Shown: positions 1,635 through 29,412 of the stretch, piece by piece
Layout: every line of letters starts with the position of its first letter
Position numbering within the stretch: the stretch's first letter is position 1
Assembly (NCBI GenBank): GCA_018608625.1
Contig: JABAZC010000032.1
Location: forward strand, 1-33,743
Origin: Flavobacteriaceae bacterium
GTDB lineage: Bacteria > Bacteroidota > Bacteroidia > Flavobacteriales > Flavobacteriaceae
Direction: 5' to 3'
DNA length: 33,743 nt
Notes under the pieces: model-generated
Databases searched by the model: none
What the model saw: the letters and a program-made list of their open reading frames with translations, nothing else
What the model was told of the DNA's origin: nothing
Program-made: the position numbers and the translations under genes

Positions 1635-2828
1635 ATGAAGAAATTACTTCTTCTTTCCGCTTTACTAATTTTCGCTTGTTCGGAAGATTATGAAGTTCTT
1701 ACTTGTATTGATAATCCTATTTTATCTACATTTCCTGCCACTAATATCACCAAATCAGCAGGCACTTTAAGTGGTGTTATAAATACTTTTCCCGAGTTCT
1801 GCGGAGAAGGTGACGGAAATGGTAATTATAATCTAGGGTTTATTTATTCAACAGAAACCCAGCCCAATTTAGAGGATTCTATAGTTAGCGGAAGTTTTGA
1901 TCTAACATTACTTTTGGTAGACGGATACATAAATGCAAGAATAGAAAATCTTGATTCAAATACCACTTACTACTTTAGAGCGTTTTTGTCTAATCCTGCA
2001 GGTAATTTTTATGCAGATGACATAAGAAGCTTTACGACTAAAGTGAATTATGAGCCTACTAATTGTGATATAGTTTATTTAGCCGAAAATGGAATAACCA
2101 TAAAAGCCTGTGAATCCGCTAATGTAGGCGACGTAGGGACTATTAATGGAATCGAATATACTATTGTGAGCGGGTCTGGTCTTAAACAGATGATTGACAA
2201 TAATGCAGATGTTACTTCTATATGTATCTCAAAAGTTACAAATATGAGTCAGTTTTTTTATCAAAACAATGAGTTTAATCAGGATGTTTCCAGTTGGGAT
2301 GTAAGTAACGTGACTAGTATGTTTCGGATGTTTGAGAAATCTGCTTTTGATCAAGATATATCCAGTTGGGATGTGAGTAATGTAACTAATATGTCTAGGA
2401 TGTTTGAAAAGTCTACTTTTAATCAAGATATTTCAAATTGGGATGTAAGTAATGTAACTAATATGTATGGGATGTTTAAGGGCAATTTAGCCTATAATCA
2501 GCCTCTAGAAAGTTGGAACGTTAGTAGTGTGAACAAAATGGGAAGAATGTTCGAAGGTTCAGCTTTTAATCAGCCCATAAATAATTGGGATGTAAGTAGT
2601 GTAAATGAGATGTGGTATATGTTTTTTAATGCTTCTAATTTTAATCAACCTATAGGAGATTGGGATGTCAGTAGCGTGATAAATATGTATTCAATGTTTA
2701 GTGGGTCTTTATTTAACCAAGCTATAGGAGATTGGGATGTAAGTAATGTTTTAGAATGTGATGGTTTCAGCTATAACACACCTGGATGGACACTACCTCA
2801 ACCTAACTTCACAAACTGTGCACCATAA
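1635..2828 (+). CDS. Surface lipoprotein with DUF285 (BspA-type) repeats
   Basis: The 397-residue protein begins with a lipoprotein signal (lipobox IFAC, Cys15). Acidic residues right after the cysteine (CSEDYE) resemble the surface-export signal described for Bacteroidota lipoproteins. Residues about 35-135 look like a fibronectin-type/immunoglobulin-like domain (LGFIYSTETQPN, NLDSNTTYYFRAFLSNPAGNFY, SFTT), common in Flavobacteria surface proteins. From residue 214 to about 372 there are seven near-identical repeats of about 24-26 residues built on FNQxISxWDVSxVTNMxxMF, the DUF285/BspA-like pattern. Such repeats form elongated leucine-rich-like or beta structures thought to bind host or cell-surface ligands. 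The C-terminus ends in a Cys-containing tail; no T9SS sorting domain is visible. Its promoter is a perfect consensus. It is probably a surface adhesion or binding protein; the ligand is unknown. Confidence 0.85.
   Translation: MKKLLLLSALLIFACSEDYEVLTCIDNPILSTFPATNITKSAGTLSGVINTFPEFCGEGDGNGNYNLGFIYSTETQPNLEDSIVSGSFDLTLLLVDGYINARIENLDSNTTYYFRAFLSNPAGNFYADDIRSFTTKVNYEPTNCDIVYLAENGITIKACESANVGDVGTINGIEYTIVSGSGLKQMIDNNADVTSICISKVTNMSQFFYQNNEFNQDVSSWDVSNVTSMFRMFEKSAFDQDISSWDVSNVTNMSRMFEKSTFNQDISNWDVSNVTNMYGMFKGNLAYNQPLESWNVSSVNKMGRMFEGSAFNQPINNWDVSSVNEMWYMFFNASNFNQPIGDWDVSSVINMYSMFSGSLFNQAIGDWDVSNVLECDGFSYNTPGWTLPQPNFTNCAP
2274..2750 (+). repeat. In-gene tandem repeats coding for DUF285 units
   Basis: Units of mostly 72-78 bases repeat within the lipoprotein gene. 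Each contains a near-constant core, TGGGATGTAAGTAATGT or a variant, coding for WDVSNV. The first copies are the most alike at the DNA level and later ones diverge more, as expected from unequal recombination. Copy number could vary between strains. Confidence 0.85.
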
Positions 2829-6769: not shown

Positions 6770-7259
6770 GATACACTAATTAATAAGATTCTATTTTATA
6801 GATTTTAATTCCCTAATTAAGTTTCATATTTATTCATTAATCATATTTGCAGAGAGTGATTGTAAAGCCTCTAATTTAAGCACTACCTCCACTTCTAGAG
6901 TCTAATTATAGATATTTAACAATGTCATCATCGAGATACTAGCTATTATTCAAAATTTAGCTCTAGGTAGGGTTTATCTGTTCAAATATTAATCATGAAA
7001 AATACGATCTTTGTGATTTGTATCGAGCGATTTGAGCTTAAACAACTATACATCACTACAACAAGTCTTACTAAATCCCTTTTTTCCCCTTATAAATATT
7101 TTCTTTACTCCGTAGGCCTTCGTAGTCTAAGTTGTGGTGTTTTGTATGTTCATTGTAGCATGAATAATTATACTGAATATTAAAAATATCTTATTTTAGT
7201 GGGCATTAGATCGTATTTAGAATAACCAACCAAAATTAAAATCAAAAAGTAATAAAAAA
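6770..7259. other. Intergenic region upstream of the glucan operon
   Basis: These 490 bases separate the minus-strand MFS gene from the first gene of the glucan operon, so promoters in both directions must lie here. I find no full TTG/TAnnTTTG match; the nearest boxes are CATATTTG (6842-6849) and TATTTTAG (7192-7199), each one base off and lacking a TTG at the right distance. The 62-codon frame at 6995-7183 has no family features and is probably chance. The base composition is AT-rich, and no riboswitch-like or repeat structure stands out. Confidence 0.5.
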
Positions 7260-10200
7260 ATGACTCAAAATAAAACCATAAATATTGGTCCTCACTTAGC
7301 TCAGCTCTCAGATTTGAATGTTAAAGGAGAACAGATGAAAATTGACGGAGAGAGTTTTTATAAAATTTCTAATGTTAATGGTATGCGTCCATTTTTCATG
7401 AGTATCGTTAGCCATTCAAACCATTGGATGTTTATTTCTAGCACGGGTGCATTGTCTGCAGGTCGAAAAGACAGTGATGCAGCCTTATTTCCTTATTATA
7501 CAGATGATAAAATATCTGATTCTTTTGAAACCACCGGGAGTAAGTCTATTTTTCTAGTTGAGAAAAACGGACAAACGTTTTTGTGGGAGCCTTTTTCCTT
7601 GCGTCAAGCATCGTTATACAAAATATCACAAAACCTCTACAAGAATGCCTTTGGTAACAAAGTGATCTTTGAAGAAATTAACCACGATCTTGAAATACGC
7701 TTCACTTATGAGTGGAACTCCACGGATCGTTACGGATTTGTTCGAAAGTCTTCGTTATACAATACAGCGAACTCAGCGGTTAAAGTTCAATTTATTGATG
7801 GGATTCAAAATGTATTGCCTTACGGCGTTGAAGAAGCGCTTCAAAATGGCACTAGTAACCTTGTTGATGCGTACAAGAGAACTGAACTTGTTGAAGGTTC
7901 TTCCCTTGCTATTTTTGCATTGAGTGCCATTATCGTTGATAAAGCGGAGCCAAGTGAGGCTTTAAAATCAAATATTACTTGGTCTATTGGACTTGAAAAC
8001 CCCACCATTCTTTTATCTTCTTTGCAACTAGATGCATTTAGAAGGGGGCAGGAAGTCTCGCAAGAAACGGATGTCAAAGCCGAAAAAGGGGCTTATTTTC
8101 TACATTCCGAAGTAGCCTTAGAGTCAAATGGATCAAAAGAGTGGCTATTGGTCGCTGATGTTAATCAAACCATCTCAGATGTGGTTACTATTAAATCACA
8201 GATACTAACGAATTCAGATTTAAAATCAACCATCCTAAATGATGTTGAGTTGGGTTCTGAACAACTTACCGAACTAGTAGCTGCGTCAGATGGACTCCAA
8301 AAAACAGCCGATGGTCTTCGCAATGTTCGCCACTTCTCAAACACCATGTTTAATATCATGCGAGGTGGGATTTTTGACGATAATTATCAAATTGAAAAAG
8401 CAGATTTTGTTCCTTACATTGAAAAGTTAAATAAAAAAGTATTCCGACACAAAGAAGCGTTGTTAAATGCCTTACCAACACTTTTCAAACTGGAAGACTT
8501 AAAGGCTTTATATCAAGACGATGAGGATAAAAACTTCAAACGTCTTTGTTGCGAATATTTACCTTTAAAGTTTAGTCGTCGCCATGGCGATCCAAGCCGT
8601 CCGTGGAATAAGTTTTCTATAAATACTAGAAACGAAAATGATGGCTCCAAAATATTAGATTATCAAGGTAACTGGCGTGATATTTTCCAAAACTGGGAGG
8701 CTTTAGCGCATTCCTATCCAGAGTTTATGGAAGGAATGATTCATAAGTTTTTAAACGCAACTACTTTTGACGGTTATAACCCGTACCGTGTTACAAAGTA
8801 TGGATTTGATTGGGAAACAATTGAGCCAGATAACCCGTGGTCATACATTGGCTATTGGGGAGATCACCAAATTATTTATTTGCTTAAGTTTCTTGAATTT
8901 ATGGAAGCCTATTACCCAAGCAAATTAGCAACCTATTTTTCTCAAGATTTATTTGTCTATGCCAACGTTCCTTACAAGATTAAGCCATACGAATCTATTT
9001 TGGAAGATCCAAAAAACACTATAGATTTTGATTTTGAAAAGGAAGAAAATATACAGTTCAAAAGGGATGAAATCGGGGTTGATGGAGCGTTGCTAAGAGA
9101 TACAACCGCCTTTATTTACAAAGTTAATTTTGTAGAAAAAATACTAGCTACTGTACTAGCAAAAATGTCTAACTTCATTCCAGAAGGTGGTATTTGGATG
9201 AATACCCAACGCCCTGAGTGGAACGATGCAAACAACGCCCTTGTGGGAAATGGAGTATCCATGGTCACCTTGTATTATTTGAGACGCTTTTTAAAGTTCT
9301 TCAACAAAGTATTGGATCAGGACACCGCAAGTCAGTTTGAAATATCCAATGAGCTGCTAGAGTTTTTCAACAAAGTATCTCAAACCTTGGAAGCGCACAA
9401 GCAGCTGCTTGAAGGTAGTTTTACCGATGAAAGTCGAAAGCTAGTCTTAGACGGTTTAGGACAAGCAGCGAGCAACTATAGAACACAGATTTACGATCAA
9501 AAGTTCTCAGGCTATAAAACAGCCGTTTCTAAGGCTTCCTTGTTAGAGTTTTCTATCACAGCCTTGGATTATTTAGAGCACTCAATACGTGCTAATAAAC
9601 GAACTGATAATTTATTTCATGCGTATAATCTGATGACCGTAACCGACCATAAGGCCGTTTCTATTTCCTATTTACCTGAAATGTTAGAGGGGCAAGTAGC
9701 GGTATTGAGCTCTGGTTATTTATCGAGTCAAGAAAGTTTAGACGTTTTAGACGGTCTAAAAAACAGTCCGTTATTTAGAGAAGATCAGTACAGCTATATC
9801 TTATATCCAAACAAAGAGCTTCCTAAGTTTGTACACAAAAACACCATTGCAGCAGCAGATGTTAAGTCATCGAAATTACTGACCCAACTTCTTGCAGATG
9901 GTAATACACAATTAATTAATCAAGATGGAAATGGTGCTTACCACTTTAATGGCGGTTTTAATAATGCTGACTCCGTACAGTCAGCCTTGAGTGGTCTTTC
10001 AGAATCGTACGCAACCCTTGTGGATGCGGATTCTAAAAAGGTGCTTGATATTTTTGAATCTGTATTTGACCACAAATCATTTACAGGAAGATCGGGCACC
10101 TTCTTTGGGTATGAAGGTCTTGGGTCTATTTACTGGCATATGGTATCCAAGTTATTATTGGCGGTCTATGAAGTCACTCAAAAAGCACTGTCTGAATCAG

Positions 10201-10724
10201 AAGATAAAGAGCTTATAGGTCGATTATACGATCATTATTTTGAAGTTAATGCAGGAATAGGAGTTCATAAATCACCAGAGCTTTATGGGGCGTTTCCTAC
10301 AGATGCGTATTCACATACGCCCGGTGGTAAAGGCGCACAGCAACCAGGGATGACCGGTCAAGTGAAAGAAGATGTTCTGAGTAGATTTGGGGAGTTAGGA
10401 GTCAAAGTACGTAATGGCGCTGTTGAATTTAACCCAGAAATCCTACGAACAGAAGAGTTTTTAGCAACGAAAGATGTGTTTAATTACATCAACCTAGCCA
10501 AAGAAAAATGTCATGTAGATTTAGAAGTAGACTCATTGGCTTTTACATATTGTCAAGTGCCGGTAATTTACCAGAAAGCATCTAGTTCAGCTATTAAAGT
10601 TTTTCTAAGTGACGGCAGAGTTTCATCCTTTAAAGGGAAGTCCCTAGATGTTGAAACGAGCCAAATGCTGTTTAATAGAGGTGGGCAAATAGATAAATTA
10701 GTGGTATCTGTAATTAAGCTCTAA
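7260..10724 (+). CDS. Cytoplasmic beta-1,3-glucan phosphorylase, GH149 family (GH94-like)
   Basis: This 1154-residue protein has no signal peptide. It shows the plan of GH94-type inverting phosphorylases: an N-terminal beta-sandwich region (about 1-330), a helical linker, an (alpha/alpha)6-type barrel (about 400-1040) and a C-terminal part. The general acid is probably Asp656 in RPEWNDANNALVGNG, equivalent to the WND aspartate of GH94. The segment GAQQPGMTGQVKED (Thr1032-Gly1033) matches the phosphate-binding loop position. Size and the WNDANNAL form point to GH149, the family founded on Euglena EgP1 and bacterial Pro_7066, rather than to GH94 (about 800 residues) or GH161. GH149 cleaves beta-1,3-gluco-oligosaccharides with phosphate, releasing alpha-glucose-1-phosphate. 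Partners in the operon (GH17, GH30, sugar symporter) fit this role. Family assignment is from memory of motifs and context. Confidence 0.82.
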   Translation: MTQNKTINIGPHLAQLSDLNVKGEQMKIDGESFYKISNVNGMRPFFMSIVSHSNHWMFISSTGALSAGRKDSDAALFPYYTDDKISDSFETTGSKSIFLVEKNGQTFLWEPFSLRQASLYKISQNLYKNAFGNKVIFEEINHDLEIRFTYEWNSTDRYGFVRKSSLYNTANSAVKVQFIDGIQNVLPYGVEEALQNGTSNLVDAYKRTELVEGSSLAIFALSAIIVDKAEPSEALKSNITWSIGLENPTILLSSLQLDAFRRGQEVSQETDVKAEKGAYFLHSEVALESNGSKEWLLVADVNQTISDVVTIKSQILTNSDLKSTILNDVELGSEQLTELVAASDGLQKTADGLRNVRHFSNTMFNIMRGGIFDDNYQIEKADFVPYIEKLNKKVFRHKEALLNALPTLFKLEDLKALYQDDEDKNFKRLCCEYLPLKFSRRHGDPSRPWNKFSINTRNENDGSKILDYQGNWRDIFQNWEALAHSYPEFMEGMIHKFLNATTFDGYNPYRVTKYGFDWETIEPDNPWSYIGYWGDHQIIYLLKFLEFMEAYYPSKLATYFSQDLFVYANVPYKIKPYESILEDPKNTIDFDFEKEENIQFKRDEIGVDGALLRDTTAFIYKVNFVEKILATVLAKMSNFIPEGGIWMNTQRPEWNDANNALVGNGVSMVTLYYLRRFLKFFNKVLDQDTASQFEISNELLEFFNKVSQTLEAHKQLLEGSFTDESRKLVLDGLGQAASNYRTQIYDQKFSGYKTAVSKASLLEFSITALDYLEHSIRANKRTDNLFHAYNLMTVTDHKAVSISYLPEMLEGQVAVLSSGYLSSQESLDVLDGLKNSPLFREDQYSYILYPNKELPKFVHKNTIAAADVKSSKLLTQLLADGNTQLINQDGNGAYHFNGGFNNADSVQSALSGLSESYATLVDADSKKVLDIFESVFDHKSFTGRSGTFFGYEGLGSIYWHMVSKLLLAVYEVTQKALSESEDKELIGRLYDHYFEVNAGIGVHKSPELYGAFPTDAYSHTPGGKGAQQPGMTGQVKEDVLSRFGELGVKVRNGAVEFNPEILRTEEFLATKDVFNYINLAKEKCHVDLEVDSLAFTYCQVPVIYQKASSSAIKVFLSDGRVSSFKGKSLDVETSQMLFNRGGQIDKLVVSVIKL

Positions 10725-10725
10725 T

Positions 10726-11988
10726 ATGAAGTACACAAGACATTTACTGTTAATCGCACTAATTTTTAATTTATGCTTTTGCCTAGGGTCTTGTAAAGAT
10801 AAAAAAATGAATGAATTACCTGTAAATAAGAATAAGTCAGCCGCTGAATTTCTAGGGCACTCTGATTATAGAGCCATGTCCTATGGAGGGTATCGGACCT
10901 TAACAAGAGATGATCAGCCTTCTTTATCTCAGATTAAAGAAGACCTCAAGATTTTATCGGCTATAGGGATCAAAGTAATCCGCACCTATAATTTACAACT
11001 AGATCAGGCTCATAATATTTTAAAAGCTATACGAGCTTTAAAAATGGAGGACGCTAGTTTTGAAATGTATGTGATGCTTGGTCTTTGGATAGAATGTGAA
11101 AATGCTCGTCAGTCACCAAATCATGGGGCGGAAGATATTGCCGTTAATACTGCTGAAATTGAGCGTGCCATAATATATAGCAATCAGTATCCAGATATCG
11201 TTAAAATTATTGCAGTAGGTAATGAAGCGATGGTTCATTGGCAAGCCGATTATTTTGTATTGCCGTCTGTAATTTTAAAGTGGGTAAATCATTTACAAAA
11301 ATTAAAAACGGAACATAAGTTACCTTCAGAATTATGGATTACAAGTTCAGATAATTTTGCATCATGGGGCGGTGGAGACGCTGCTTATCACAACGAAGAT
11401 TTAACCGCTTTGATTAAGGCAGTCGATTATATTTCACTACATACGTATCCATTTCATGACACACACTATAATTCCAGTTTTTGGCTAGAGAGTCAAAAGA
11501 ATATCGAACATTTAGATGCCAAAGTACGAATTGAATTGGCAGTACAGAGTGCGGTTGATTATGCCGTATTTCAGTACCAAGCCGTTGAAAGTTATGTAGA
11601 AAGCTTAGGAGTTCAAACTCCGATTCACATAGGGGAAACAGGATGGGCTACAGCATCAGAGAATCTTTATGGCACTTCGGGGACTCAAGCCGCTGATGAA
11701 TACAAGCAAGCTCTTTATTACCAAAAAATGTCTGACTGGACCATAGCAAATGAGGTGAGTTGTTTTTATTTTGAAGCTTTTGATGAACCTTGGAAGGATG
11801 CACCTCGTCCTAGGGGGTCTGAAAATCATTTTGGACTTATTGATGTCGAGGGAACTCTTAAATACGCCCTTTGGGATGAATATGATTCAGGTGTTTTTAA
11901 GGGCATGACTCGCGATGATATACCACTTAAAAAATCGTTTAATGGGGCATTTGAGGAGATGTTCAGTACAGTTAAACTACCAAACTAA
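10726..11988 (+). CDS. GH17-family beta-1,3-glucan-active lipoprotein
   Basis: The start is one base after the stop codon of the phosphorylase gene. The signal ends in a lipobox (LGSC, Cys23), giving an anchored protein of about 397 residues. It is a GH17 TIM-barrel: acid/base Glu167 in IAVGNEAM, nucleophile Glu304 in HIGETGWATAS, and FEAFDEPWK near the end, a conserved aromatic/acidic strand of this family. GH17 enzymes hydrolyse or transglycosylate beta-1,3-glucans with retention. Fungal and bacterial relatives with this short form include glucanosyltransferases, so elongation or branching is as possible as hydrolysis. The cysteine is followed by KDKK, not a clear surface-export signal, so a periplasmic location is favoured. 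It is a paralogue of the signal-less GH17 at 16917, sharing YGGYR/YSGYR, SQxKEDL and EAFDEPWK. Confidence 0.87.
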   Translation: MKYTRHLLLIALIFNLCFCLGSCKDKKMNELPVNKNKSAAEFLGHSDYRAMSYGGYRTLTRDDQPSLSQIKEDLKILSAIGIKVIRTYNLQLDQAHNILKAIRALKMEDASFEMYVMLGLWIECENARQSPNHGAEDIAVNTAEIERAIIYSNQYPDIVKIIAVGNEAMVHWQADYFVLPSVILKWVNHLQKLKTEHKLPSELWITSSDNFASWGGGDAAYHNEDLTALIKAVDYISLHTYPFHDTHYNSSFWLESQKNIEHLDAKVRIELAVQSAVDYAVFQYQAVESYVESLGVQTPIHIGETGWATASENLYGTSGTQAADEYKQALYYQKMSDWTIANEVSCFYFEAFDEPWKDAPRPRGSENHFGLIDVEGTLKYALWDEYDSGVFKGMTRDDIPLKKSFNGAFEEMFSTVKLPN

Positions 11989-11993
11989 ACATA

Positions 11994-13010
11994 ATGAAAT
12001 TAAAATTAAAACATATATTTATCTTTGGACTTCTTAGTCTTTCTTATAGTTTTATATCTTTTGAGGATACTGAGGTGGTTTCGGTCAAAGATAGACAGTT
12101 ACGAATTAATGAGACGCCGTACTTTATAAAGGGAGTTTGTTACAACCCCGTCGAAAAGGGGCGTGTAGAAAGAGATTTCACGAATATCGATCTTGACCTT
12201 GCCTTAATGAAAGAAGCAGGTATAAATACCATCCGCGTCTACATGCCTATTGATGAGGTTTCTGTTTTGGATAAGATTGCTGCTGCAGGGATTAAAGTGA
12301 TTACAAGTTTTGGCTACAACCAAGAAGGGCGTTATGATATGGTCACAGGTTCTTATTTAGACTATGTTAACAAATACAAAAATCATAAAGCAATTTTATT
12401 ATGGGAGCTTGGGAATGAATATAACTACCATCCAGAATGGTTTGAAGGTGATATAAAAAACTGGTATGACAGTTTGCAAAACGCAGCAGATGCCATTCAT
12501 CAAAATGATCCAAATCACCCTGTTGCCTCAGCGCATGGTGAACTTCCAGATAGCGCTGCTTTGGCTGCATCGACCAATATCGATTTATGGGGCCTGAATG
12601 TGTACCGTTGGGATAATCCAGAAAAAATATTTAAACAATGGTCAGCCTTAAGTGATAAGCCTATGTATCTTTCAGAGGCCGGGAGTGATAGTTATATGAC
12701 TGTTGCCAACCATGGGTTTTCTAAAGGGGAGAACCAGCACGCACAAGCGCAGTCTTTAAATAATATTTTGAGTGATGTTTTTGAGCATAAATTGATTAGT
12801 ACTGGTGTTTTAGTATTTTCTTTTACAGACGAGTTATGGAAAGCGGGAAGCCCAGATGTCCAAGATATTGGTGGCTGGGCTCCAGCCAGTAGCGGGGTGC
12901 CTTATGACGGAACTGCTAATGAAGAATATTGGGGGCTGTTAGACGTTAATCGCGATAAAAAAGAGGCGTTTTATGTACTGAAAGAATTTTATAATAACCT
13001 AGATAATTAA
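11994..13010 (+). CDS. Secreted clan GH-A glycoside hydrolase, GH2/GH5/GH72-like
   Basis: A 338-residue protein with a Lys-rich hydrophobic signal peptide (about 20 residues, no lipobox). The mature part is a single TIM barrel of clan GH-A: strand 1 YFIKGVCYNP, strand 2 EAGINTIRVYMP, acid/base Glu142 in LLWELGNEYNYHPEW, nucleophile Glu228 in MYLSEAGSDSY, and a final VFSFTDELWKAG strand. Automated tools would probably call it a GH2 TIM-barrel protein, but it lacks the flanking sugar-binding and immunoglobulin-like domains of true GH2 enzymes. The start (FIKGVCYNP, AGINTIRVY) also recalls GH72 beta-1,3-glucanosyltransferases. Placement between GH17 and GH30 genes points to a beta-glucan substrate. 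The precise family and whether it hydrolyses or transfers glucosyl chains stay open. Confidence 0.75.
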   Translation: MKLKLKHIFIFGLLSLSYSFISFEDTEVVSVKDRQLRINETPYFIKGVCYNPVEKGRVERDFTNIDLDLALMKEAGINTIRVYMPIDEVSVLDKIAAAGIKVITSFGYNQEGRYDMVTGSYLDYVNKYKNHKAILLWELGNEYNYHPEWFEGDIKNWYDSLQNAADAIHQNDPNHPVASAHGELPDSAALAASTNIDLWGLNVYRWDNPEKIFKQWSALSDKPMYLSEAGSDSYMTVANHGFSKGENQHAQAQSLNNILSDVFEHKLISTGVLVFSFTDELWKAGSPDVQDIGGWAPASSGVPYDGTANEEYWGLLDVNRDKKEAFYVLKEFYNNLDN

Positions 13011-13017
13011 TCTTTTC

Positions 13018-14517
13018 ATGATGCGAAATACAATATTTAATCCCCCCTTTTTTTTAGTAGTAATGTCCTTGTTTTTAGCTTCGTGTGATTCAAAAAAAGA
13101 AATGATGATAGAGGTCTATGAAACATCTGCCGCGGGACATAAATTAACCCCATTAAACTCCTTTTCCATAGGGGGTGTAGTTTCCGAAATTAATTTAAAC
13201 TTGGAAGAAAAACTACAAACGATTACTGGATTTGGTGGAGCTTTTACAGAATCTTCAGCCTATCTTTTAAATCGACTAAGCCCCGAAAAAAAGGACCAAA
13301 TAATCAATGCCTATTTTTCTAAAGAAGGCGCCGCCTATTCTTTGACGCGAACCCATATGAATTCGTGTGATTTTTCTTTGAGTAACTATTCTTATACGGC
13401 GATTGAAGGCGACACTGAACTTGAACACTTTTCTATAGAGCATGACAAAGATGATCTTATTCCAATGATCAAGGCTGCACAGGCAGCTTCCAAAGACGGA
13501 TTCAAACTTTTCGCATCGCCTTGGACTGCTGCACCATGGATGAAAGACAATAATTCATGGGTTGGAGGGAAATTAAAGCCAGAGTATTATGATACATGGG
13601 CGTTATTTTTCTCTAAATATGCCGATGCTTACAAAGCTGAAGGCATCGATATCTGGGGTTTTACGGTTGAAAACGAACCTATGGGTAATGGAAATAACTG
13701 GGAGAGTATGGTTTTTAGCCCTGAAGAGATGACGCATTTTGTTCAAAACCATCTTGGTCCTACGCTAGAGGCCAAAGGACAGGAAGACCTGGTCATATTG
13801 GGTTTTGATCAAAATAGAGGCGACCTTAAAGAGTGGGTAGATGTAATGTTTAAAGATGAGGCAAGCTCAAGATATTACGATGGAACGGCTATTCACTGGT
13901 ATGAAAGTACCTATGATTATTTTCCAGAAGAGTTACAATACGCACATTATAAAGCACCTAATAAATATTTAATTCAAGCTGAAGCATGTGTGGACTCAGA
14001 GGTTCCAGCTTGGAAGGATGATGCTTGGTACTGGTCTAAAGAAGCCACCGATTGGGGTTTTGATTGGCGTGAGGCTGAAAAAAAGTACTTACACCCTAAA
14101 TACGCACCTGTTAATCGCTATGCGAGGGATATTATTGGTTGCTTAAACAACTGGGTTGACGGATGGGTCGATTGGAACATGGTTCTTGACCGACAAGGGG
14201 GTCCTAATTGGTTTAAGAATTGGTGTGTAGCGCCAATAATTGTAGACCCAGAACAAGACGAAGTTTACCTTACCCCGCTCTATTATGTTATGTCTCATTT
14301 TAGCAAATTTATTAGGCCTGGAGCGCGTGTTATTCAAGTCCATAAAACAGATGATGATTTAATGGTCTCTGCAACTGAAAACCTTAATGGTTCTATAGTG
14401 GTGGTGGTTTTTAATGAAGGACTTTCTGAAAAGTATTTTAATTTAAATTTATCTGGAGAAACCCATGCTTTGAGCGTAAGCCCCCAAGCCTTACAAACTA
14501 TAATTTTCACAAACTAA
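13018..14517 (+). CDS. GH30-family beta-glucosidase/beta-1,6-glucanase lipoprotein
   Basis: A 499-residue lipoprotein (lipobox LASC, Cys23; ATG codons at 13018 and 13021 are both usable). GH30 features run through the protein: GFGGAFTESSAYLLNRL near residue 75, RTHMNSCDFS, SPWTAAPWMKD, acid/base Glu220 in TVENEP, AIHWY, nucleophile Glu322 in LIQAEAC, NWVDGWVDWNM and the C-terminal beta-domain starting around YYVMSHFSKFIRPGA. These are the marks of the glucosylceramidase-like GH30_1/GH30_3 group. Marine Bacteroidota use such enzymes to remove beta-1,6-linked glucose from laminarin, which fits the neighbouring beta-1,3-glucan genes. The lipid anchor places it outside the cytoplasm. The sequence after the cysteine (CDSKKE) is not strongly acidic, so surface exposure is uncertain. 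Confidence 0.9.
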   Translation: MMRNTIFNPPFFLVVMSLFLASCDSKKEMMIEVYETSAAGHKLTPLNSFSIGGVVSEINLNLEEKLQTITGFGGAFTESSAYLLNRLSPEKKDQIINAYFSKEGAAYSLTRTHMNSCDFSLSNYSYTAIEGDTELEHFSIEHDKDDLIPMIKAAQAASKDGFKLFASPWTAAPWMKDNNSWVGGKLKPEYYDTWALFFSKYADAYKAEGIDIWGFTVENEPMGNGNNWESMVFSPEEMTHFVQNHLGPTLEAKGQEDLVILGFDQNRGDLKEWVDVMFKDEASSRYYDGTAIHWYESTYDYFPEELQYAHYKAPNKYLIQAEACVDSEVPAWKDDAWYWSKEATDWGFDWREAEKKYLHPKYAPVNRYARDIIGCLNNWVDGWVDWNMVLDRQGGPNWFKNWCVAPIIVDPEQDEVYLTPLYYVMSHFSKFIRPGARVIQVHKTDDDLMVSATENLNGSIVVVVFNEGLSEKYFNLNLSGETHALSVSPQALQTIIFTN

Positions 14518-14527
14518 AACTATAATT

Positions 14528-16012
14528 ATGAATTCACAAACTAATTTAGTGCGCAGTCGAGTTTCTTGGGGTCAAAAGATAGCCTTTGGCTTTGGCATGC
14601 TCGCCAATCAAATGTTTCCAGCGGTAATAAGTATTTTCATTGTTGTACTGGTTCAAAATTTAGGTTTTCCAGGGTGGATGTGGGGTGTTGTGTCGCTAGC
14701 GCCAAGGATTTTCGATTCTATTACAGATCCAATTATGGGGTTTATTTCAGATAACACAAAATCTAAGTGGGGCAGACGGCGACAGTATGTGTTGATTGGA
14801 GCCCTAATTATGGGGGTCTCATTTATCATTATGTGGCAGTTATTTCTAGATAATGGTGTGGATTATAATTTCGTATACTTTTTAATGTGGTCTCTTGTGT
14901 TTTATTTAGGTCTTACCATATTTGGAGTTCCTTATGTAGCGATGGGCTATGAAATGAGTGATGATTTTCATGAGCGTACGCAGATTATGGCCGTTGCTCA
15001 ATGGATCGGACAATGGGCATGGGTCATAGCACCTTGGTTTTGGGTTGTTATGTATGCTGACCCCAACTCTGTTATGTTTTCAATATTTGATTTCCAAACT
15101 AATGGCTGGTTTGAGTCTGCTGAAGTTGCTGTAAGAGAGTTAGCAATTTGGGTTGGAGTTGTCTGCATGATTTTTGCTATGATTCCTGCCATATTCATTA
15201 AAAGTGAATCTACATTAGATAAAGATTACGCTCCTTTAACCCTCAAAAACATTGGAGGGAGTTTCAAGGAAATTGGAACTAGTTTTGTAGAGGCATCCAG
15301 GTCCAAACCGTTTAGAAAACTGTGTGTTTCTACTTTTTTCATCTTTAATGCTTTTAATACCGTCGCAGGGTTCACCTTTTTTATTATTGTCTATTATTTA
15401 TTTAATGGCAATACCGGCGATGCAGGTATTTGGCCCACATTGTTTGGAAGCTGTGGTGCCTTAGTGACTACCTTCTTAGTCATCCCAATTGTTACCTATA
15501 TGTCTAAGAAAGTAGGTAAAAAGAAAGCTTTTTTAATTTCACAGAGTATATCAATTGTAGGGTACGTCATGTTTTGGTTTTTGTTTATCCCTGGAAAGCC
15601 TTATATGTTTTTATTCGCCTTGCCTTTCTTTTCTTTTGGAATCGGAGGGTTGTTTACGTTAATGATGTCAATGACGGCAGATGTTATTGATTTAGATGAG
15701 CTTCATACAGGTAAAAGACGAGAAGGTGTTTTCGGTGCAATTTACTGGTGGATGGTCAAGTTTGGTTTTGCCATCGCAGGCGGTTTGACTGGAACAATTC
15801 TGACGTTAGTTGGTTTTACATCTGGGGCAGACTCACAACCTGAAAATGCGATAATAGGTCTTCGATTATTTTTCACTGGCTTCCCAATACTAGGAACTTT
15901 AATTGCTATTTATGTAATGTGGGATTATGATATCACGGAAGAGAAAGCCAATGAAATTTCAGAAGCGCTAGCCAAAAGAAAATCAGAGAATACAATTAAA
16001 TCTAATCACTAA
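14528..16012 (+). CDS. GPH-family (MelB-like) sugar:cation symporter
   Basis: A 494-residue inner-membrane transporter with about twelve hydrophobic segments. It carries the GPH signature after the first helix pair: Asp63 and Asp67 in FDSITDPIMG, at the same DxxxD spacing as the cation-site residues Asp55 and Asp59 of MelB, then ISDNTKSKWGRRRQY. GYEMSDDFHERT and DVIDLDELHTGKRREGVFGA are further family marks. Members import glycosides such as melibiose, xylosides and glucuronides with Na+ or H+. Here it should bring beta-gluco-oligosaccharides made outside into the cytoplasm, feeding the GH149 phosphorylase and the two signal-less GH17 proteins. It is the only transporter in this operon. Confidence 0.9.
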   Translation: MNSQTNLVRSRVSWGQKIAFGFGMLANQMFPAVISIFIVVLVQNLGFPGWMWGVVSLAPRIFDSITDPIMGFISDNTKSKWGRRRQYVLIGALIMGVSFIIMWQLFLDNGVDYNFVYFLMWSLVFYLGLTIFGVPYVAMGYEMSDDFHERTQIMAVAQWIGQWAWVIAPWFWVVMYADPNSVMFSIFDFQTNGWFESAEVAVRELAIWVGVVCMIFAMIPAIFIKSESTLDKDYAPLTLKNIGGSFKEIGTSFVEASRSKPFRKLCVSTFFIFNAFNTVAGFTFFIIVYYLFNGNTGDAGIWPTLFGSCGALVTTFLVIPIVTYMSKKVGKKKAFLISQSISIVGYVMFWFLFIPGKPYMFLFALPFFSFGIGGLFTLMMSMTADVIDLDELHTGKRREGVFGAIYWWMVKFGFAIAGGLTGTILTLVGFTSGADSQPENAIIGLRLFFTGFPILGTLIAIYVMWDYDITEEKANEISEALAKRKSENTIKSNH

Positions 16013-16018
16013 AATAGT

Positions 16019-16903
16019 ATGTCATACAGAAAAGAAAAGAAAAAATCGTTAGTAGGTCTAAATTATTCAGAGTATAGTTCTGAACAACTTCAATCTCTTT
16101 GCAGCACAGTTTTAGATAACGGAATGCATGGTTTGTGTTTTAGTCCTTACGAAGAAGGTCAAAAACCAGGCGATTTAATAACGGAGGCTCAAATCCGAAA
16201 ACGTCTTGAAATCATAGCACCCTATACTAAGTGGATTCGTAGTTTTTCATGTACTGAGGGAAATGATTTAATTCCTAAATTAGCTAAAGAGTACGGACTG
16301 AAAACGCTAGTTGGTGCTTGGTTAGGAGATGATAAGGTCGTCAATAACAAAGAAATGAAAGCGCTTATTGAGCTTAGTAAAGCTGGGTTTGTAGATGTAG
16401 CAGCTGTTGGAAATGAGGTTATGTACAGGGGAGATCTTACAGAAGCTGAACTTATAGATCATATTCAAGCGTTTAAAACAGCTGTCCCAACTGTTGATGT
16501 TGGTTATGTAGATGCGTATTATGAATTCACTGATCGTCCAAAAATTACAGAAGCCTGTGATGTTATTCTTGCTAATTGTTATCCCTATTGGGAAGCCTGT
16601 CATATGGACTATTCCTTGCTTTATATGAAGCAGATGTACCAACAAGCATTGCATGCCGCGAATGGTAAAAAAGTAATTATTACCGAAACTGGATGGCCAA
16701 GTCAAGGAAGTGATTTAGGGATCTCCCACCCTTCATATGACAATGCCCTTAAGTATTTTATCAATGCTCAACTTTGGTCTAACCAAGACCAAATTGAAAT
16801 GTTTTATTTCTCCTCTTTTGATGAATCTTGGAAAGTGGGAACCGAGGGAGATGTAGGGGCTTTCTGGGGGCTTTGGGATAAAAATGAAAAATTAAAATTT
16901 TAA
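16019..16903 (+). CDS. Cytoplasmic GH17-like protein (single compact barrel)
   Basis: A 294-residue protein without a signal peptide (start MSYRKEKKK, charged), in the same operon as the symporter (6-base gap). GH17 marks: acid/base Glu133 in AAVGNEVMY, nucleophile Glu223 in IITETGWPSQGS, the exact textbook ETGWP form, and FSSFDESWK near the end. It resembles the short bacterial/fungal exo-type beta-1,3-glucanases and glucanosyltransferases of GH17. Its cytoplasmic location is unusual for GH17 and suggests it acts on imported oligosaccharides, either cutting them or rearranging them into substrates for the phosphorylase. It is clearly more distant from the two other GH17 proteins of the operon than those are from each other. 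Confidence 0.83.
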   Translation: MSYRKEKKKSLVGLNYSEYSSEQLQSLCSTVLDNGMHGLCFSPYEEGQKPGDLITEAQIRKRLEIIAPYTKWIRSFSCTEGNDLIPKLAKEYGLKTLVGAWLGDDKVVNNKEMKALIELSKAGFVDVAAVGNEVMYRGDLTEAELIDHIQAFKTAVPTVDVGYVDAYYEFTDRPKITEACDVILANCYPYWEACHMDYSLLYMKQMYQQALHAANGKKVIITETGWPSQGSDLGISHPSYDNALKYFINAQLWSNQDQIEMFYFSSFDESWKVGTEGDVGAFWGLWDKNEKLKF

Positions 16904-16916
16904 AAAATATATTTAG

Positions 16917-17873
16917 ATGACCATTATGAATTATTCTGAAGTTTTCTCTATTCCAGCAGCCTCAGCAGTTTGTTATTCAGGCTACCGATCAGGCCAAGTG
17001 CCTGGGGTGACATATCCAACTTATAGTCAGGTTAAAGAAGACTTACTTATAGTTCAACAACATTGGACCTACATTCGTCTGTACAGTTGCGACACCCATT
17101 CAAAAACTGTTTTAGAGGTTATCAAAATTGAAAAATTAGACCTTAAAGTCATGCTTGGGGCCTATATTATTGCTGAAGAAAACAACCATAATTGCCCATG
17201 GGGTGGAGGGGTACATTCTGAAGAAACCTTACAAAAGAATAAAGTAAATAACCAAATAGAAATTAATAAGCTTATTGAACTTGCCAATACATATCCTTCT
17301 ATTATTTTTAGTCTTTCAGTTGGTAATGAGGCCTGTGTAGAATGGACAGATCATATGGTACCAGTTGCTAAGGTTATTGCGTACGTAAATCAGCTTAAAG
17401 AAGCGACGAAACAACCCGTTACGTTTTGTGAAAATTATGTGCCTTGGTTAGATAAATTAGCACCTTTAGTAGAGGCTGTTGATTTTATATCTATTCATAC
17501 CTATCCTCTTTGGGAGTATAAAACCATTGACGAAGCCATTGCATTTACAAAAACAAATTACGAGGCAGTTGCCGAAAGGTACCCTAATAAATTAGTGGTT
17601 ATAACTGAAGCCGGCTGGGCATCGACTTCAAATGGGCAAGGCATTCCAAGAGAGCATGCGAATCCTGTTTTTCAAAAAATTTACTACCAAGAACTCAGCC
17701 GTTGGTGTGAGGAGGAAATGATACTTACCTTTATTTTTGAAGCATTTGATGAGCCATGGAAGGGATCTGATGATCCTGATGAACCTGAAAAACATTGGGG
17801 TTTATATTATGAAAACCGAAGCCCAAAACTAGTACTTCAAAAAAAGACAGCGTATAAGACGGAAGTTTTATAA
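16917..17873 (+). CDS. Cytoplasmic GH17-like protein, paralogue of the GH17 lipoprotein
   Basis: The 318-residue protein lacks a signal peptide (start MTIMNYSEVFSIPAASA; Met4 is an alternative start). GH17 marks: acid/base Glu138 in LSVGNEACVEW, nucleophile Glu231 in VITEAGWASTS, and FIFEAFDEPWKGS at the end. The usual ETGW motif has become EAGW (Thr to Ala), while both catalytic glutamates remain. It shares YSGYRSG, YSQVKEDL and EAFDEPWK with the lipoprotein at 10726, so the two are likely duplicates sent to different compartments. It is the last gene of the operon, 13 bases after its neighbour, and converges on the HxlR-type gene. A transglycosidase or exo-hydrolase role on imported beta-glucan fragments is inferred. 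Confidence 0.82.
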   Translation: MTIMNYSEVFSIPAASAVCYSGYRSGQVPGVTYPTYSQVKEDLLIVQQHWTYIRLYSCDTHSKTVLEVIKIEKLDLKVMLGAYIIAEENNHNCPWGGGVHSEETLQKNKVNNQIEINKLIELANTYPSIIFSLSVGNEACVEWTDHMVPVAKVIAYVNQLKEATKQPVTFCENYVPWLDKLAPLVEAVDFISIHTYPLWEYKTIDEAIAFTKTNYEAVAERYPNKLVVITEAGWASTSNGQGIPREHANPVFQKIYYQELSRWCEEEMILTFIFEAFDEPWKGSDDPDEPEKHWGLYYENRSPKLVLQKKTAYKTEVL

Positions 17874-17897: not shown

Positions 17898-18332
17898 TTA
17901 TACTTCTTTAAGCTCCATAACAAACTTTAGGTACTCTTCTGAAACCCTGTTATGAAAGCTTTTATGGTCTTTCAGAATTTCTTTTTTAATACGCATTTGA
18001 GAGTCATTAAGCTTGGATTCATCAATTGAATGAATAGAAAATAAATATAATTCGATGATAATTGGAAGCGCTGAAAGGGCTCTTTTTGTACCGATATATT
18101 GCTTGTTTTTCTTGAATCCTTGGGGGTCTAAAAGTTCAAGAAAACCTTCTTCTACCAAAAACTTTAATCTATTGGTAAGGATGTTAGTAGCAATTTTTTC
18201 TTTAGAGCTTCTAAACTCTTTGAACCTAGATTTTTTATGTATGACAACATCTCTTAAGATCAAAAGAGACCACTTGTCTCCTAAAAGATCTATAGAGTAA
18301 GCGATTGCACATGTGCGTTTAGTGTCTAACAT
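17898..18332 (-). CDS. HxlR-family winged-helix transcriptional regulator
   Basis: A 144-residue DNA-binding protein. The N-terminus holds the HxlR signature: Cys8 in RTCAIAYSIDLLGDKWSLLILRD, then RFKEFR, the recognition region IATNILTNRLKFLVEEGFLELL, and a wing region (FKKNKQYIGTKRAL) leading to the TKRALSALPIIIELYLF dimerisation helix. The family's N-terminal cysteine acts as a redox or electrophile sensor in YodB/HypR-type members. The C-terminus (about 100-144) is a longer helical tail than usual. It is divergent from the NTF2-ABM lipoprotein gene with a palindrome between them, so autoregulation and control of that gene are the likeliest roles. Its convergent position to the glucan operon does not in itself suggest control of that operon. 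Confidence 0.9.
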   Translation of the reverse strand: MLDTKRTCAIAYSIDLLGDKWSLLILRDVVIHKKSRFKEFRSSKEKIATNILTNRLKFLVEEGFLELLDPQGFKKNKQYIGTKRALSALPIIIELYLFSIHSIDESKLNDSQMRIKKEILKDHKSFHNRVSEEYLKFVMELKEV

Positions 18333-22113: not shown

Positions 22114-24378
22114 CTAGTAAACGATAGATTTTGGCCTGTACTTTTCTTCTGTTCCGAACTCTAAATTTGGAGTTGGCCCCATTACAAACTTAAGCTCACC
22201 TCCATTAACTAACTCTTTATGAGTTATATAAGAGTATTTATGCTCAGCCCCATTAAGTGTTACTTCTTGAATATAGATATTGGAGTCAGAATTGTTTTCT
22301 GCGATAATTTTCATGATTTTACCATTGCCTAAATTTAAATCTACCTCGTCAAACAAGGGACTTCCAAAAACGTAAGCGCCGTTTGAAGGGTTTACAGGAT
22401 AGAAGCCCATAGAAGAAAATATATACCAAGCAGACATTTGTCCACAGTCTTCATTCCCACTTAAACCATCTGGTTTGTCTGTATACAAATTAGTAGTTAT
22501 ATATCTCACATTTTCAGGTATTTTATATTGCTGCCCTGCATAGGCATACATATAAGTGGTGTGGTGGCTAGGCTCGTTTCCGTGTGCATATTGCCCAATC
22601 AGTCCAGTAATATCCATTGAAGACCCTTCTTCCAAATCAGAAGAAATACTAAACAATTGGTCTAGCTTTGAGGTGAACCCTTTATCTCCTCCAAGTAATT
22701 CAATCAGACCTTCTGGGTCTTGTGGAGTTAGCCAAAGATATTGCCAAGCATTTCCTTCACAATAATCGTTGACTCTGTGCTGAGCAGACTTAGGATCAAA
22801 AGGAGTTCGCCAGCTGCCATCAGCCATCTTACCTCTCATGAATTTTGTTTCAGGATCGAAATAATTTTTATAGGACTTCGAGCGATTTAAAAAATACTCA
22901 TAGTCTTTTGGCTTATTTAATTTAGCTGCGAGCTGCGCAATTCCCCAATCTGCTATTGCATACTCCATGGTACTCGCGATTGATTCCGCCATATAATCTG
23001 AAGGAATATATCCATATTTCATTAAGTCTTTTACCCCAGGCTCGTGGTCTCCAGTTGCACTTTCTTTCACCGCTGCATATACTTTTTCTAAGTCAATCCC
23101 TTCAAATCCTTTTAGGCAGGCATCAACAACAACAGGGATAGCACTGTAACCCGGCATCGTATTAGTTTCATTTCCTCTCAAGTGCCATACGGGTAATTTA
23201 CCTTGTTGCTCAAATATTTTAACCATCGAATTTACCATGTCACTCACTCTCTCTGGCTGCGTTATCGTATACAAAGGGTGCGCAGCTCTGTAGGTATCCC
23301 AAAGAGAAAATAGAGTATAGTTGGTAAACGTTGTGTCTTTATACACCTTTTTGTCAGTCCCTCGGTATTCGCCATTAAGATCTTGGAATAGATTAGGGGC
23401 AATCATATTGTGATACATTGCTGTATAAAAGACTCTCTTTTTAGCTTTGTCTCTTGTTTTAATATGAATTTTTGAAAGTTCTTTATTCCATTTGTCTTCT
23501 GCATCTTTCAACACTCTATTGAAATCCCACCCTGGAATTTCTATCATTAAATTATCTAATCCATTACTTGAACTTACAGGAGAAACACCCATTTTCAAAT
23601 AAATCACTTCATCTTTTTTAGTAGAAAACTCTAAAAAACCTTTTAAAAATTTACCTTTTTTTTCAGAGGCTTTTGCTCTTCTACCATTATTATAAATAAT
23701 AAAATCTTTAACAGGTTTAGAGACCACTAATGAGAAAAACTCTCTTTGGTCAGATGCCCAACCTGATGAAAACCGATACCCTTCAAATAAAGTGTCGTTA
23801 ATTTGTCTCAAATAAGTGTCGGTTGGGCGGTCAGCACTTCCTTCACCTAAATCTATTATGATCCTTGATTTTGAAGATTCGGGAAAGGTGTATCTGTGCA
23901 ATCCAGAGCGTTCGGTGGCCGTTAATTCAACCTTAATATCATAGCGATCTAACATGACTTGGTAGTATCCAGGGCTTGCACTTTCTTTATCTTTCGAATA
24001 TAAAGAAGCATACCCTTTCATATGTCTGTCCTGTGTTCCAGCATTAATTTTTAACTCGCCGGTCGCCGGCATGACTGTAAGTTCACCTAAATCTGACATT
24101 CCAGTACCACTTACATTTAAATGGCAAAACCCTTTAACAATACTGTCTGAGTGATGGTAGGACGATGACCAATCCCAGCCTTTATTAAAATTTGTTGGGC
24201 CCACTTGAACCCCGCCAAATGGCACATTAGCCCCTACGAAAACATGCCCATGACCACCAGATCCGATAAAGGGATCAACATATTTTATATAGTTATTCGG
24301 CTTCATACTTTTAAAACCAAAACTTATTAATATGAGCGCCATTACAGCAAATATGTTTTTAAAATTAAGATGTTTCAT
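22114..24378 (-). CDS. GH92 alpha-mannosidase (exported)
   Basis: A 754-residue protein of usual GH92 size with a hydrophobic N-terminal signal and no lipobox cysteine. The N-terminal beta-sandwich begins with the family signature YVDPFIGSGGHGHVFVGANVPFGGVQVGP. The (alpha/alpha)6 catalytic region contains LFSLWDTYRAAHPLYTI, GNEPSHHTTYMYAYAGQ (Glu602) and GLSGNEDCGQMSAWYIFSSMGFYP (Asp644), where family acid and base residues lie. GH92 enzymes are calcium-dependent inverting exo-alpha-mannosidases, mostly alpha-1,2 but also 1,3, 1,4 and 1,6. It is probably periplasmic and is the only glycoside hydrolase of the susCD operon. That makes alpha-mannan, or mannose-capped N-glycans, the likely substrate; the linkage cannot be told here. 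It lies 82 bases after the preceding gene. Confidence 0.94.
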   Translation of the reverse strand: MKHLNFKNIFAVMALILISFGFKSMKPNNYIKYVDPFIGSGGHGHVFVGANVPFGGVQVGPTNFNKGWDWSSSYHHSDSIVKGFCHLNVSGTGMSDLGELTVMPATGELKINAGTQDRHMKGYASLYSKDKESASPGYYQVMLDRYDIKVELTATERSGLHRYTFPESSKSRIIIDLGEGSADRPTDTYLRQINDTLFEGYRFSSGWASDQREFFSLVVSKPVKDFIIYNNGRRAKASEKKGKFLKGFLEFSTKKDEVIYLKMGVSPVSSSNGLDNLMIEIPGWDFNRVLKDAEDKWNKELSKIHIKTRDKAKKRVFYTAMYHNMIAPNLFQDLNGEYRGTDKKVYKDTTFTNYTLFSLWDTYRAAHPLYTITQPERVSDMVNSMVKIFEQQGKLPVWHLRGNETNTMPGYSAIPVVVDACLKGFEGIDLEKVYAAVKESATGDHEPGVKDLMKYGYIPSDYMAESIASTMEYAIADWGIAQLAAKLNKPKDYEYFLNRSKSYKNYFDPETKFMRGKMADGSWRTPFDPKSAQHRVNDYCEGNAWQYLWLTPQDPEGLIELLGGDKGFTSKLDQLFSISSDLEEGSSMDITGLIGQYAHGNEPSHHTTYMYAYAGQQYKIPENVRYITTNLYTDKPDGLSGNEDCGQMSAWYIFSSMGFYPVNPSNGAYVFGSPLFDEVDLNLGNGKIMKIIAENNSDSNIYIQEVTLNGAEHKYSYITHKELVNGGELKFVMGPTPNLEFGTEEKYRPKSIVY

Positions 24379-24460
24379 GTATTATATTTTTTAATTTGTA
24401 TTAAGGTTGGCAGTTTTTTTTTATTTGTAGCTTTAAAATCTCTTACTAATTATTAAGCAC

Positions 24461-26212: not shown

Positions 26213-26227
26213 GATTTAAATATATCG

Positions 26228-29403: not shown

Positions 29404-29412
29404 GATTAGTTG

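Follow-up and report, generated by a model that had tools for sequence, protein, structure and literature searches.

A GH149-type gene cassette of a Flavobacteriaceae genome as the probable inner half of a laminarin-use system

Gene content of the cassette

The stretch of DNA analysed here, referred to as the window, is one whole contig of 33,743 nucleotides (JABAZC010000032.1, designated C17) from a Flavobacteriaceae bacterium (assembly GCA_018608625.1), the genome of which comprises 1.9 Mb in 92 contigs and is 90.7% complete. It carries a cassette of seven co-directional open reading frames (ORFs) on the plus strand at positions 7260-17873, which is centred on a phosphorylase of glycoside hydrolase family 149 (GH149) and would very probably supply the inner (periplasmic and cytoplasmic) half of a system for the use of laminarin. 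A preliminary description had read seven genes on one strand, 1-13 bases apart, as coding for a GH149-type phosphorylase, three GH17 proteins, a clan GH-A enzyme, a GH30 enzyme and a symporter of the glycoside-pentoside-hexuronide (GPH) type. Coordinates and gaps (in order, 1, 5, 7, 10, 6, and 13 bases) agree with that reading, and the family calls are upheld by matches in Pfam, NCBIfam, and the Protein Data Bank (PDB). The genes are as follows.

7260..10724, plus strand: GH149 beta-1,3-glucan phosphorylase without recognizable signal peptide, presumably cytoplasmic
10726..11988, plus strand: GH17A, probable endo-beta-1,3-glucanase, putative lipoprotein (PF00332 and PDB 6fcg matches)
11994..13010, plus strand: 338-residue TIM-barrel enzyme of clan GH-A, probably exported (PF02836)
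13018..14517, plus strand: GH30, probable exo-beta-1,6-glucosidase (GH30_1-like), putative lipoprotein (PF02055, PF17189)
14528..16012, plus strand: GPH/MFS_2 symporter, probably for oligosaccharides (PF13347)
16019..16903, plus strand: GH17B, probably cytoplasmic hydrolase/transglycosylase (PF00332, PDB 4wtp)
16917..17873, plus strand: GH17C, probably cytoplasmic, without the transglycosylase tyrosine (PF00332 barely above cutoff)

The Pfam scan covered 20 of the 21 window ORFs of at least 120 amino acids, the remaining one being a 127-amino acid antisense ORF at 16322-16705. Two catalytic-type glutamate motifs, presumably those typical of clan GH-A, are kept in each of the three GH17 proteins, the GH30 protein, and the 338-residue enzyme. 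From their N-termini, GH17A and GH30 are predicted to be lipoproteins, while GH149, GH17B, and GH17C would be devoid of a signal sequence. Promoter-like sites (41 versus 37.7 ± 6.1) and terminator-like sites (7 versus 7.8 ± 3.0) are no commoner than in shuffled sequences. The Bacteroidota-type promoter pattern is absent from the intergenic region at 6770-7259 and occurs five times in the window, with 3.05 occurrences expected. A gene for an HxlR-type regulator (17898-18332, minus strand) converges on the cassette 24 bases past its last stop codon.

The phosphorylase and its partners

Phosphorolysis spares ATP relative to hydrolysis followed by the action of glucokinase. The 1154-residue protein encoded by the first gene matches the model NF058639 with 1789.7 bits (curated equivalog cutoff, 1150) over positions 4-1133 of 1134, so that its best profile match lies within the set GH149, GH94, and GH161 that the preliminary description had named for comparison. 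Similarity to PDB 6hq6 (1586.6 bits) extends across residues 18-1152. W654-N655-D656, R473-D474, E952, and H960 are aligned to the active-site columns of Pro_7066, in which the corresponding residues are W651-N652-D653, R470-D471, E951, and H959 (PMC6771811). The protein is firmly assigned as a GH149 beta-1,3-glucan phosphorylase, with the activity being predicted from sequence. Genes of the phosphoglucomutase/phosphomannomutase type are present in the genome, which is a weak sign, since matches to this family are found in all 14 control genomes.

GH17A, GH17B, and GH17C are the only GH17 matches of the whole genome. GH17A exceeds the PF00332 cutoff of 28.2 bits (36.8 bits), contains the motifs GNE at 165-167 and ETGW from residue 304, and begins with a hydrophobic stretch followed by an LGSC lipobox with Cys23. 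It matches the GH17 crystal chain PDB 6fcg over the full length with 512.8 bits; we take this chain to be FbGH17A of Formosa. The structure of FbGH17A has been solved (PMC6246565). GH17B (43.2 bits against PF00332) resembles the beta-1,3-glucanosyltransferase PDB 4wtp (111.9 bits) and possesses Y136, W191, and E192, which bear the same numbers as Tyr136, Trp191, and Glu192 of MlGH17B (PMC11005184), an enzyme of the beta-1,3-glucanosyltransglycosylase type; it would probably be a cytoplasmic hydrolase/transglycosylase. GH17C scores 28.9 bits against PF00332, 95.9 bits against 6fcg, and 44.9 bits against 4wtp, and has a valine aligned to Tyr136 of GH17B.

The GH30 protein matches PF02055 (261.4 bits) and PF17189 (33.6 bits), its nearest PDB chains are glucosylceramidases, and its best NCBIfam model is an endo-1,6-beta-glucanase that stays under its cutoff (217.9 versus 700 bits). 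It likewise shows a hydrophobic N-terminal stretch with an LASC lipobox and Cys23. Membership of subfamily GH30_1 and exo-activity are probable by analogy to FbGH30 (PMC6246565).

The symporter matches PF13347 (MFS_2; MFS, major facilitator superfamily) with 224.7 bits and TIGR00792 with 188.8 bits, the latter under the cutoff of 231.35. Its gene shares one frame with that of GH17B, only one TAA codon and six bases lying between them, and MFS::GH17 fusions occur in 12 of the 80 GH149 loci compared below as well as in published clusters (PMC6246565, PMC10108472), which would be in line with a broken fusion gene. Such an origin is hardly credible, however, and the idea was rejected: the 80 loci comprise 12 fused, 37 separate, and 19 unresolvable arrangements besides 12 loci without MFS gene, and the same frame is found in 10 of the 37 separate pairs, which is about the chance level of one third. 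Furthermore, GH17B has its own ATG, and 10 of the 12 fused loci contain a second GH17B match. In two loci (L018:6859-8310, L019:16312-17757) the MFS protein is only 65-66% identical to that of window 14528-16012, while GH149 is about 90% identical; in L017 and L078 the MFS identity is 90-92%. The transporter seems to have been exchanged within the cassette.

The second locus of the genome

According to the preliminary description, SusCD as well as GH16 and GH3 were absent. This holds for the cassette, and no GH16 or GH3 of the genome is located on the window contig, but it does not hold for the organism. A genome search returned two GH16 matches (both on contig C44), five GH3 matches, and five SusD matches, one of them on the window contig and four elsewhere. 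Hence, it is the cassette that lacks these genes, whereas the organism has them. The window itself also encodes a SusD and a SusC-like TonB-dependent receptor, at 27460-32559 on the minus strand beside a GH92 gene.

Contig C44 carries a GH16, a GH3, and a second GH16 gene grouped close to its end. Contig C89 encodes a regulator containing a Y_Y_Y domain (and a LuxR match below cutoff), SusC (837.6 bits), SusD (102.2 bits), and a binding-protein-like product without Pfam match. The ends of C89 and C44 share an exact overlap of 55 bases; since it falls within a repeated domain, adjacency of the two contigs is likely rather than proven. Binding-protein-like ORFs with nearly repeated domains bridge the loci L096 (end of C44) and L098 (end of C89), and these repeated domains may be the cause of the assembly break. 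In a genus-mate (G010, locus L144), homologues of the regulator, SusC, SusD, the protein at the end of C89, a 293-amino acid protein, GH16, and GH3 follow each other on one contig; the second GH16 of the outer half was not found at that locus. Altogether, the C89/C44 gene set is close to laminarin variant A, with a GH3 framed by two GH16 (PMC6298971).

Distribution of the cassette

The genome_contigs collection (84,980 species) was scanned, and gene order was compared across the best 80 of 132 confirmed GH149 relatives, with locus matches below 45 bits or overlapping a better match being ignored; under this filter, GH17B and GH17C are told apart by best score only. Downstream counts refer to the 62 loci with at least 7.2 kb after GH149, and flank counts to the 39 loci in which both flanks reach 9.8 kb or more. 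Downstream of GH149, MFS is present in 61 of the 62 loci, GH17A in 56, GH30 in 47, GH17B or GH17C in 46, and the 338-residue enzyme in 32. The order GH17A-GH30-MFS-GH17B/C is kept after GH149 in 39 loci, GH149-GH17A-338-residue enzyme-GH30-MFS-GH17B in 14, and the exact order of all seven genes in four (L029, L034, L045, L046). Flavobacteriaceae, Schleiferiaceae, Cryomorphaceae, Cyclobacteriaceae, Saprospiraceae, and others are represented. Within about 10 kb of GH149 at the 39 fully flanked loci, GH16 is found in 35, SusD in 13, SusC in 12, and GH3 in 9 cases; these are lower bounds, since the tblastn queries were the proteins of this genome.

A rearranged form of the cassette is seen in L020, L030, and L057 (Flammeovirgaceae, Cyclobacteriaceae), where GH17C lies upstream of GH149, in L030 and L057 together with GH17B; GH17A and GH30 were not found within the flank covered.

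The 338-residue enzyme

The only Pfam model above cutoff for the 338-residue enzyme is the GH2 TIM barrel PF02836 (34.8 versus 21 bits, residues 29-233), which is matched by 38 of the 39 rows of its alignment; E142 and E228 are invariant. The AlphaFold2 model has a mean local confidence (pLDDT) of 81.8 and a predicted TM-score (pTM) of 0.82, with weak stretches at 234-238 and 280-311. The Foldseek top ten consists of GH2 barrels and GH158 chains of 18-19% identity with query-based TM-scores (TMq) of 0.62-0.69, the GH158 chains ranging at 0.62-0.63 with the same identity. The profile match to the GH158 chain 9oro (44.1 bits) spans 138 positions only. In sum, sequence, profile, and fold searches of the PDB yielded only generic GH2/GH158 barrels, a literature search for PDB 9fz9 gave no match, and NCBIfam holds no model near its cutoff for the enzyme or two homologues. 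The combination of TIM barrel and beta-sandwich domains expected of GH2 is not seen, as only the barrel model matches, the protein has 338 residues, and no sandwich domain is evident from the modelled secondary structure. The N-terminus is hydrophobic and a lipobox, searched as a simple pattern, occurs in 26 of 39 alignment rows, the enzyme of the window being without it; export is probable from sequence. By its place in L019, the enzyme is probably the 'GH0' of PMC10108472.

Among 296 sampled genomes of the order that were at least 85% complete (threshold, E <= 1e-50), the enzyme is present in 17, each with GH149 on the same contig and strand, and it follows the GH149 match at a distance of 1,274-1,381 bases in every case; GH149 itself occurs in 49 of the 296 genomes. 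The fact that 14 of the 17 genomes belong to one genus weighs against their independence. With matches classed as strong (at least 50% identity) or weak (below 35%), the 39 fully flanked loci include 17 with the 338-residue enzyme, 20 with a larger related-barrel protein upstream of GH149, none with both, and two with neither (L061, L068); across the full set of 80 loci, 40 have the enzyme, 26 have the larger protein, and none has the two together. The Fisher p (3e-9) is not to be taken at face value, since the exclusion partly tracks phylogeny, and locus L035, which has the strong form, also contains a GH-A-like ORF of 29% identity downstream, cut by the locus end, which speaks against mutual exclusion. 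The large proteins measure 1038-1066 amino acids in 25 of 26 loci (872 in L052). Small and large families align with each other profile to profile (probability 99.9%, E = 1e-34, 297 columns) and share the GNE-NY, second-glutamate, DGWWK-like, and NEE-WG motifs. Of 17 genomes of the window's own genus, three carry the small form (81-87% identical), 11 give weak matches only, mostly to ORFs of about 1,050 amino acids, and three give no match.

It may tentatively be proposed, though it is less likely than not, that the 338-residue family (mostly lipoproteins) and the catalytic half of the upstream proteins of about 1,045 residues form a clan GH-A family of glycoside hydrolases that has yet to be described, acting as dedicated partner of GH149 in two interchangeable forms, a small lipoprotein and a large secreted one, with whole cassettes moving between marine Bacteroidota lineages. 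If so, this family would perform a step that phosphorolysis needs, such as removal of the branched or non-reducing-end block of laminarin.

History of the cassette within the genus

A GH149 tree was calculated from 83 of 84 rows (80 loci, the window, and three genus-mate stretches), L086 having been left out because of a stop codon inside its GH149. At this locus (L086:2141-5560), from a metagenome-assembled genome of the Saprospiraceae, the GH149 match has one internal stop, which reflects either an assembly error or a pseudogene. GH149 of the genus-mates L143, L150, and L151 groups with L049, L043, L052, L054, and L067, whereas that of the window is placed with L016-L019, L078, and L090 in a clade of 28 rows, which also has Schleiferiaceae, Cyclobacteriaceae, and Flammeovirgaceae records. 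A topology constrained to unite the groups of the window and of the genus-mates was rejected in an approximately unbiased (AU) test with 40 rows and two genus-mates (p = 1.8e-6, log-likelihood difference 186), the p-value being post hoc, because rows and groups were picked after the first tree had been seen. Compared with G010, the outer half is 83% (SusD), 78% (SusC), 82% (GH3), 64% (GH16), and 33-54% (binding proteins) identical, and the cassette 64% (GH149) and 70-73% (GH30 and MFS). In view of the values for the outer GH16 and binding proteins on the one hand and GH30 and MFS on the other, the contrast between the two halves is not uniform. The cassette lineage of the window would thus appear to differ from that of the tested genus-mates, so that one genus may carry two distinct lineages, a pattern that fits either a cassette replaced by one of another lineage or an ancient duplication followed by differing losses.

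Proposed pathway and alternative explanations

In the proposed route, laminarin would be cut at the cell surface by GH16 and the pieces would be imported by SusCD, as suggested by the second locus. In the periplasm, debranching and shortening of the pieces would fall to GH30 and GH17A, both putative lipoproteins, and to the 338-residue enzyme, with GH30 removing beta-1,6 branches and GH17A, perhaps along with the 338-residue enzyme, cutting the backbone. Linear laminari-oligosaccharides would be carried over the inner membrane by the GPH symporter. In the cytoplasm, GH149 would release glucose-1-phosphate, which an enzyme of the phosphoglucomutase type would feed to glycolysis, while GH17B and GH17C would hydrolyse or re-shape the short chains that GH149 cannot finish. 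The periplasm-to-cytoplasm route of the preliminary description is thereby retained, with GH149, a transporter of the inner membrane, and partners that probably act in debranching and endo-cleavage. The cassette is not purely phosphorolytic, since two signal-less GH17 accompany GH149, and the enzymes to which one of these corresponds in place and key residues have been described as an exo-glucosidase (FbGH17b) and a transglycosylase (MlGH17B).

A stand-alone route, in keeping with the SusCD-free reading of the preliminary description, would have only small laminari-oligosaccharides made by other organisms scavenged via porins, with the cassette working alone. No SusCD, GH16, or GH3 gene adjoins the cassette, neighbourhoods without SusCD are common among the 39 flanked loci (GH16 outnumbering SusC and SusD there in the lower-bound counts), and scavenging has been proposed for proteobacterial Type I clusters (PMC5827456). 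The same genome, however, contains SusC, SusD, two GH16, and GH3 in an apparently single laminarin locus, so that use of the polymer is expected and scavenging as the sole mode is improbable. Phosphorylases are reversible, and with the transglycosylase residues of GH17B in mind the cytoplasmic part could be imagined to run in reverse, GH149 and GH17B building beta-1,3-glucan from glucose-1-phosphate for synthesis or storage; a storage role has been suggested for the products of MlGH17B in Muricauda (PMC11005184, PMC13188888). Co-location of the transporter and the exported GH17 and GH30, together with the degradative reading of GH149 clusters (PMC5827456, PMC6484121), makes this very improbable.

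A division into an inner half, the cassette, and an outer half, comprising regulator, SusC, SusD, binding proteins, and GH16-GH3-GH16 elsewhere in the genome, is the explanation favoured here with high confidence. Several points weigh against it. The overlap joining C89 to C44 lies in a repeated domain, the genome is incomplete, GH17C barely passes its cutoff, and signal sequences and lipoboxes were read by eye. No regulator gene is found inside the cassette, the HxlR-type neighbour is on the opposite strand, and the single transcript is proposed from spacing and strand only. Close relatives vary: L017 is without GH17A and GH30, and in L019 tblastn detected no GH17 within 10 kb, though PMC10108472 lists GH17 in that polysaccharide utilization locus (PUL). 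Finally, what the cassette would do in this organism is deduced from its genes. Families, active-site residues, gene order, conservation, and the second locus are matters of observation; protein locations, substrate, co-transcription, and the split between phosphorolysis and hydrolysis are more conditional.

Other features of the window

A second PUL occupies 22114-32559 on the minus strand. Besides a SusC-like receptor, SusD, and a GH92 protein, it encodes two proteins carrying DUF4998/DUF4959/DUF5126/DUF5000 as well as F5/8-type C domains. Another SusD, similar in length to that of this PUL, is encoded on contig C59, with a protein bearing a type IX secretion system (T9SS) tail two genes on. 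At 1635-2828 (plus strand), a 397-amino acid protein has strong matches to DUF285 (210.8 bits), a repeat family whose name comes from Mycoplasma and which is here met in a marine flavobacterium.

Comparison with described laminarin systems

Contrary to the preliminary description, the cassette does not stand outside the described laminarin loci. Clusters that combine GH149 with GH17, GH30_1, and/or an MFS gene have been published (PMC5827456, PMC6246565, PMC10108472, PMC13188888). GH149 occurs both in PULs and in clusters of carbohydrate-active enzymes (CAZymes) without susCD (PMC5827456); the latter are known from PMC5827456, PMC10108472, and, for Colwellia, PMC10811738, where GH17, GH16_3, and GH149 of susCD-less loci were expressed in spring. 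The Bacteroidetes clusters of this kind combine GH149 with GH17 and/or GH16 and GH3 and/or GH30_1 (PMC5827456), and with its co-located CAZymes and a different transporter the cassette fits the usage of PMC5827456 and PMC10108472. As to variant B/variant 1, GH30_1 and at least two GH17 are matched at family level by GH30 and three GH17; GH16 is missing from the locus, the only two of the genome being on C44, and so is a susCD pair, that of the contig lying beside GH92 on the other strand.

The closest counterpart is Cd. Prosiliicoccus AB_MB380, which expressed a variant 1 locus 'GH149-GH0-GH30_1-GH17' in situ and has separate GH16_3-GH3 and GH16_3 loci (PMC10108472), a separation resembling that in the present genome; a variant 1 locus without susCD is also reported for NS4 W_MB115 (PMC10108472). 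Locus L019, recorded under the isolate name AB_MB380, encodes a GH149 and a 338-residue enzyme that are 89% and 82% identical to those of the window, and GH149, an unclassified GH, GH30, and MFS come in the same order; it differs by the lack of a tblastn-detectable GH17 within 10 kb and by an MFS of only 66% identity.

In Formosa, laminarin-induced PULs contain GH149, GH17A, GH30, and MFS::GH17b, and a GH30-GH17A-GH17b cascade was shown in vitro (PMC6246565). Formosa sp. Hel1_33_131 shares the components GH149, GH17A, GH30, MFS, and GH17B and has three laminarin PULs in one genome, but its MFS is fused to GH17b (PMC6246565, PMC6298971). Formosa-type loci L049 and L143 have a GH2_C-type enzyme of about 1,045 amino acids and GH16 upstream, in place of the 338-residue enzyme. 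Muricauda has the block GH17A lipoprotein-GH30_1-MFS-cytoplasmic GH17B, with GH149 upstream in most clusters, and the locations of GH17A and GH17B are as read for the window; differences are the predicted cytoplasmic GH30_1, which in the window would be a lipoprotein, the presence of GH16 and GH2 within the locus, and two GH17 genes, GH17C not being mentioned in the excerpted text (PMC13188888).

Since laminarin is among the largest sugar pools of the ocean, phosphorolytic users matter for the energy yield during algal blooms. What would be left as new is the 338-residue enzyme, which appears to match no specific curated family and keeps a fixed place after GH149 in 17 of 17 sampled genomes having it, and, as a further lead of use, the apparent separate ancestry of the cassette, with evidence for two lineages within one genus. 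Summarizing, the cassette is a further example of the described GH149-type laminarin clusters (variant 1/variant B), and the locus adds an example rather than a new principle.

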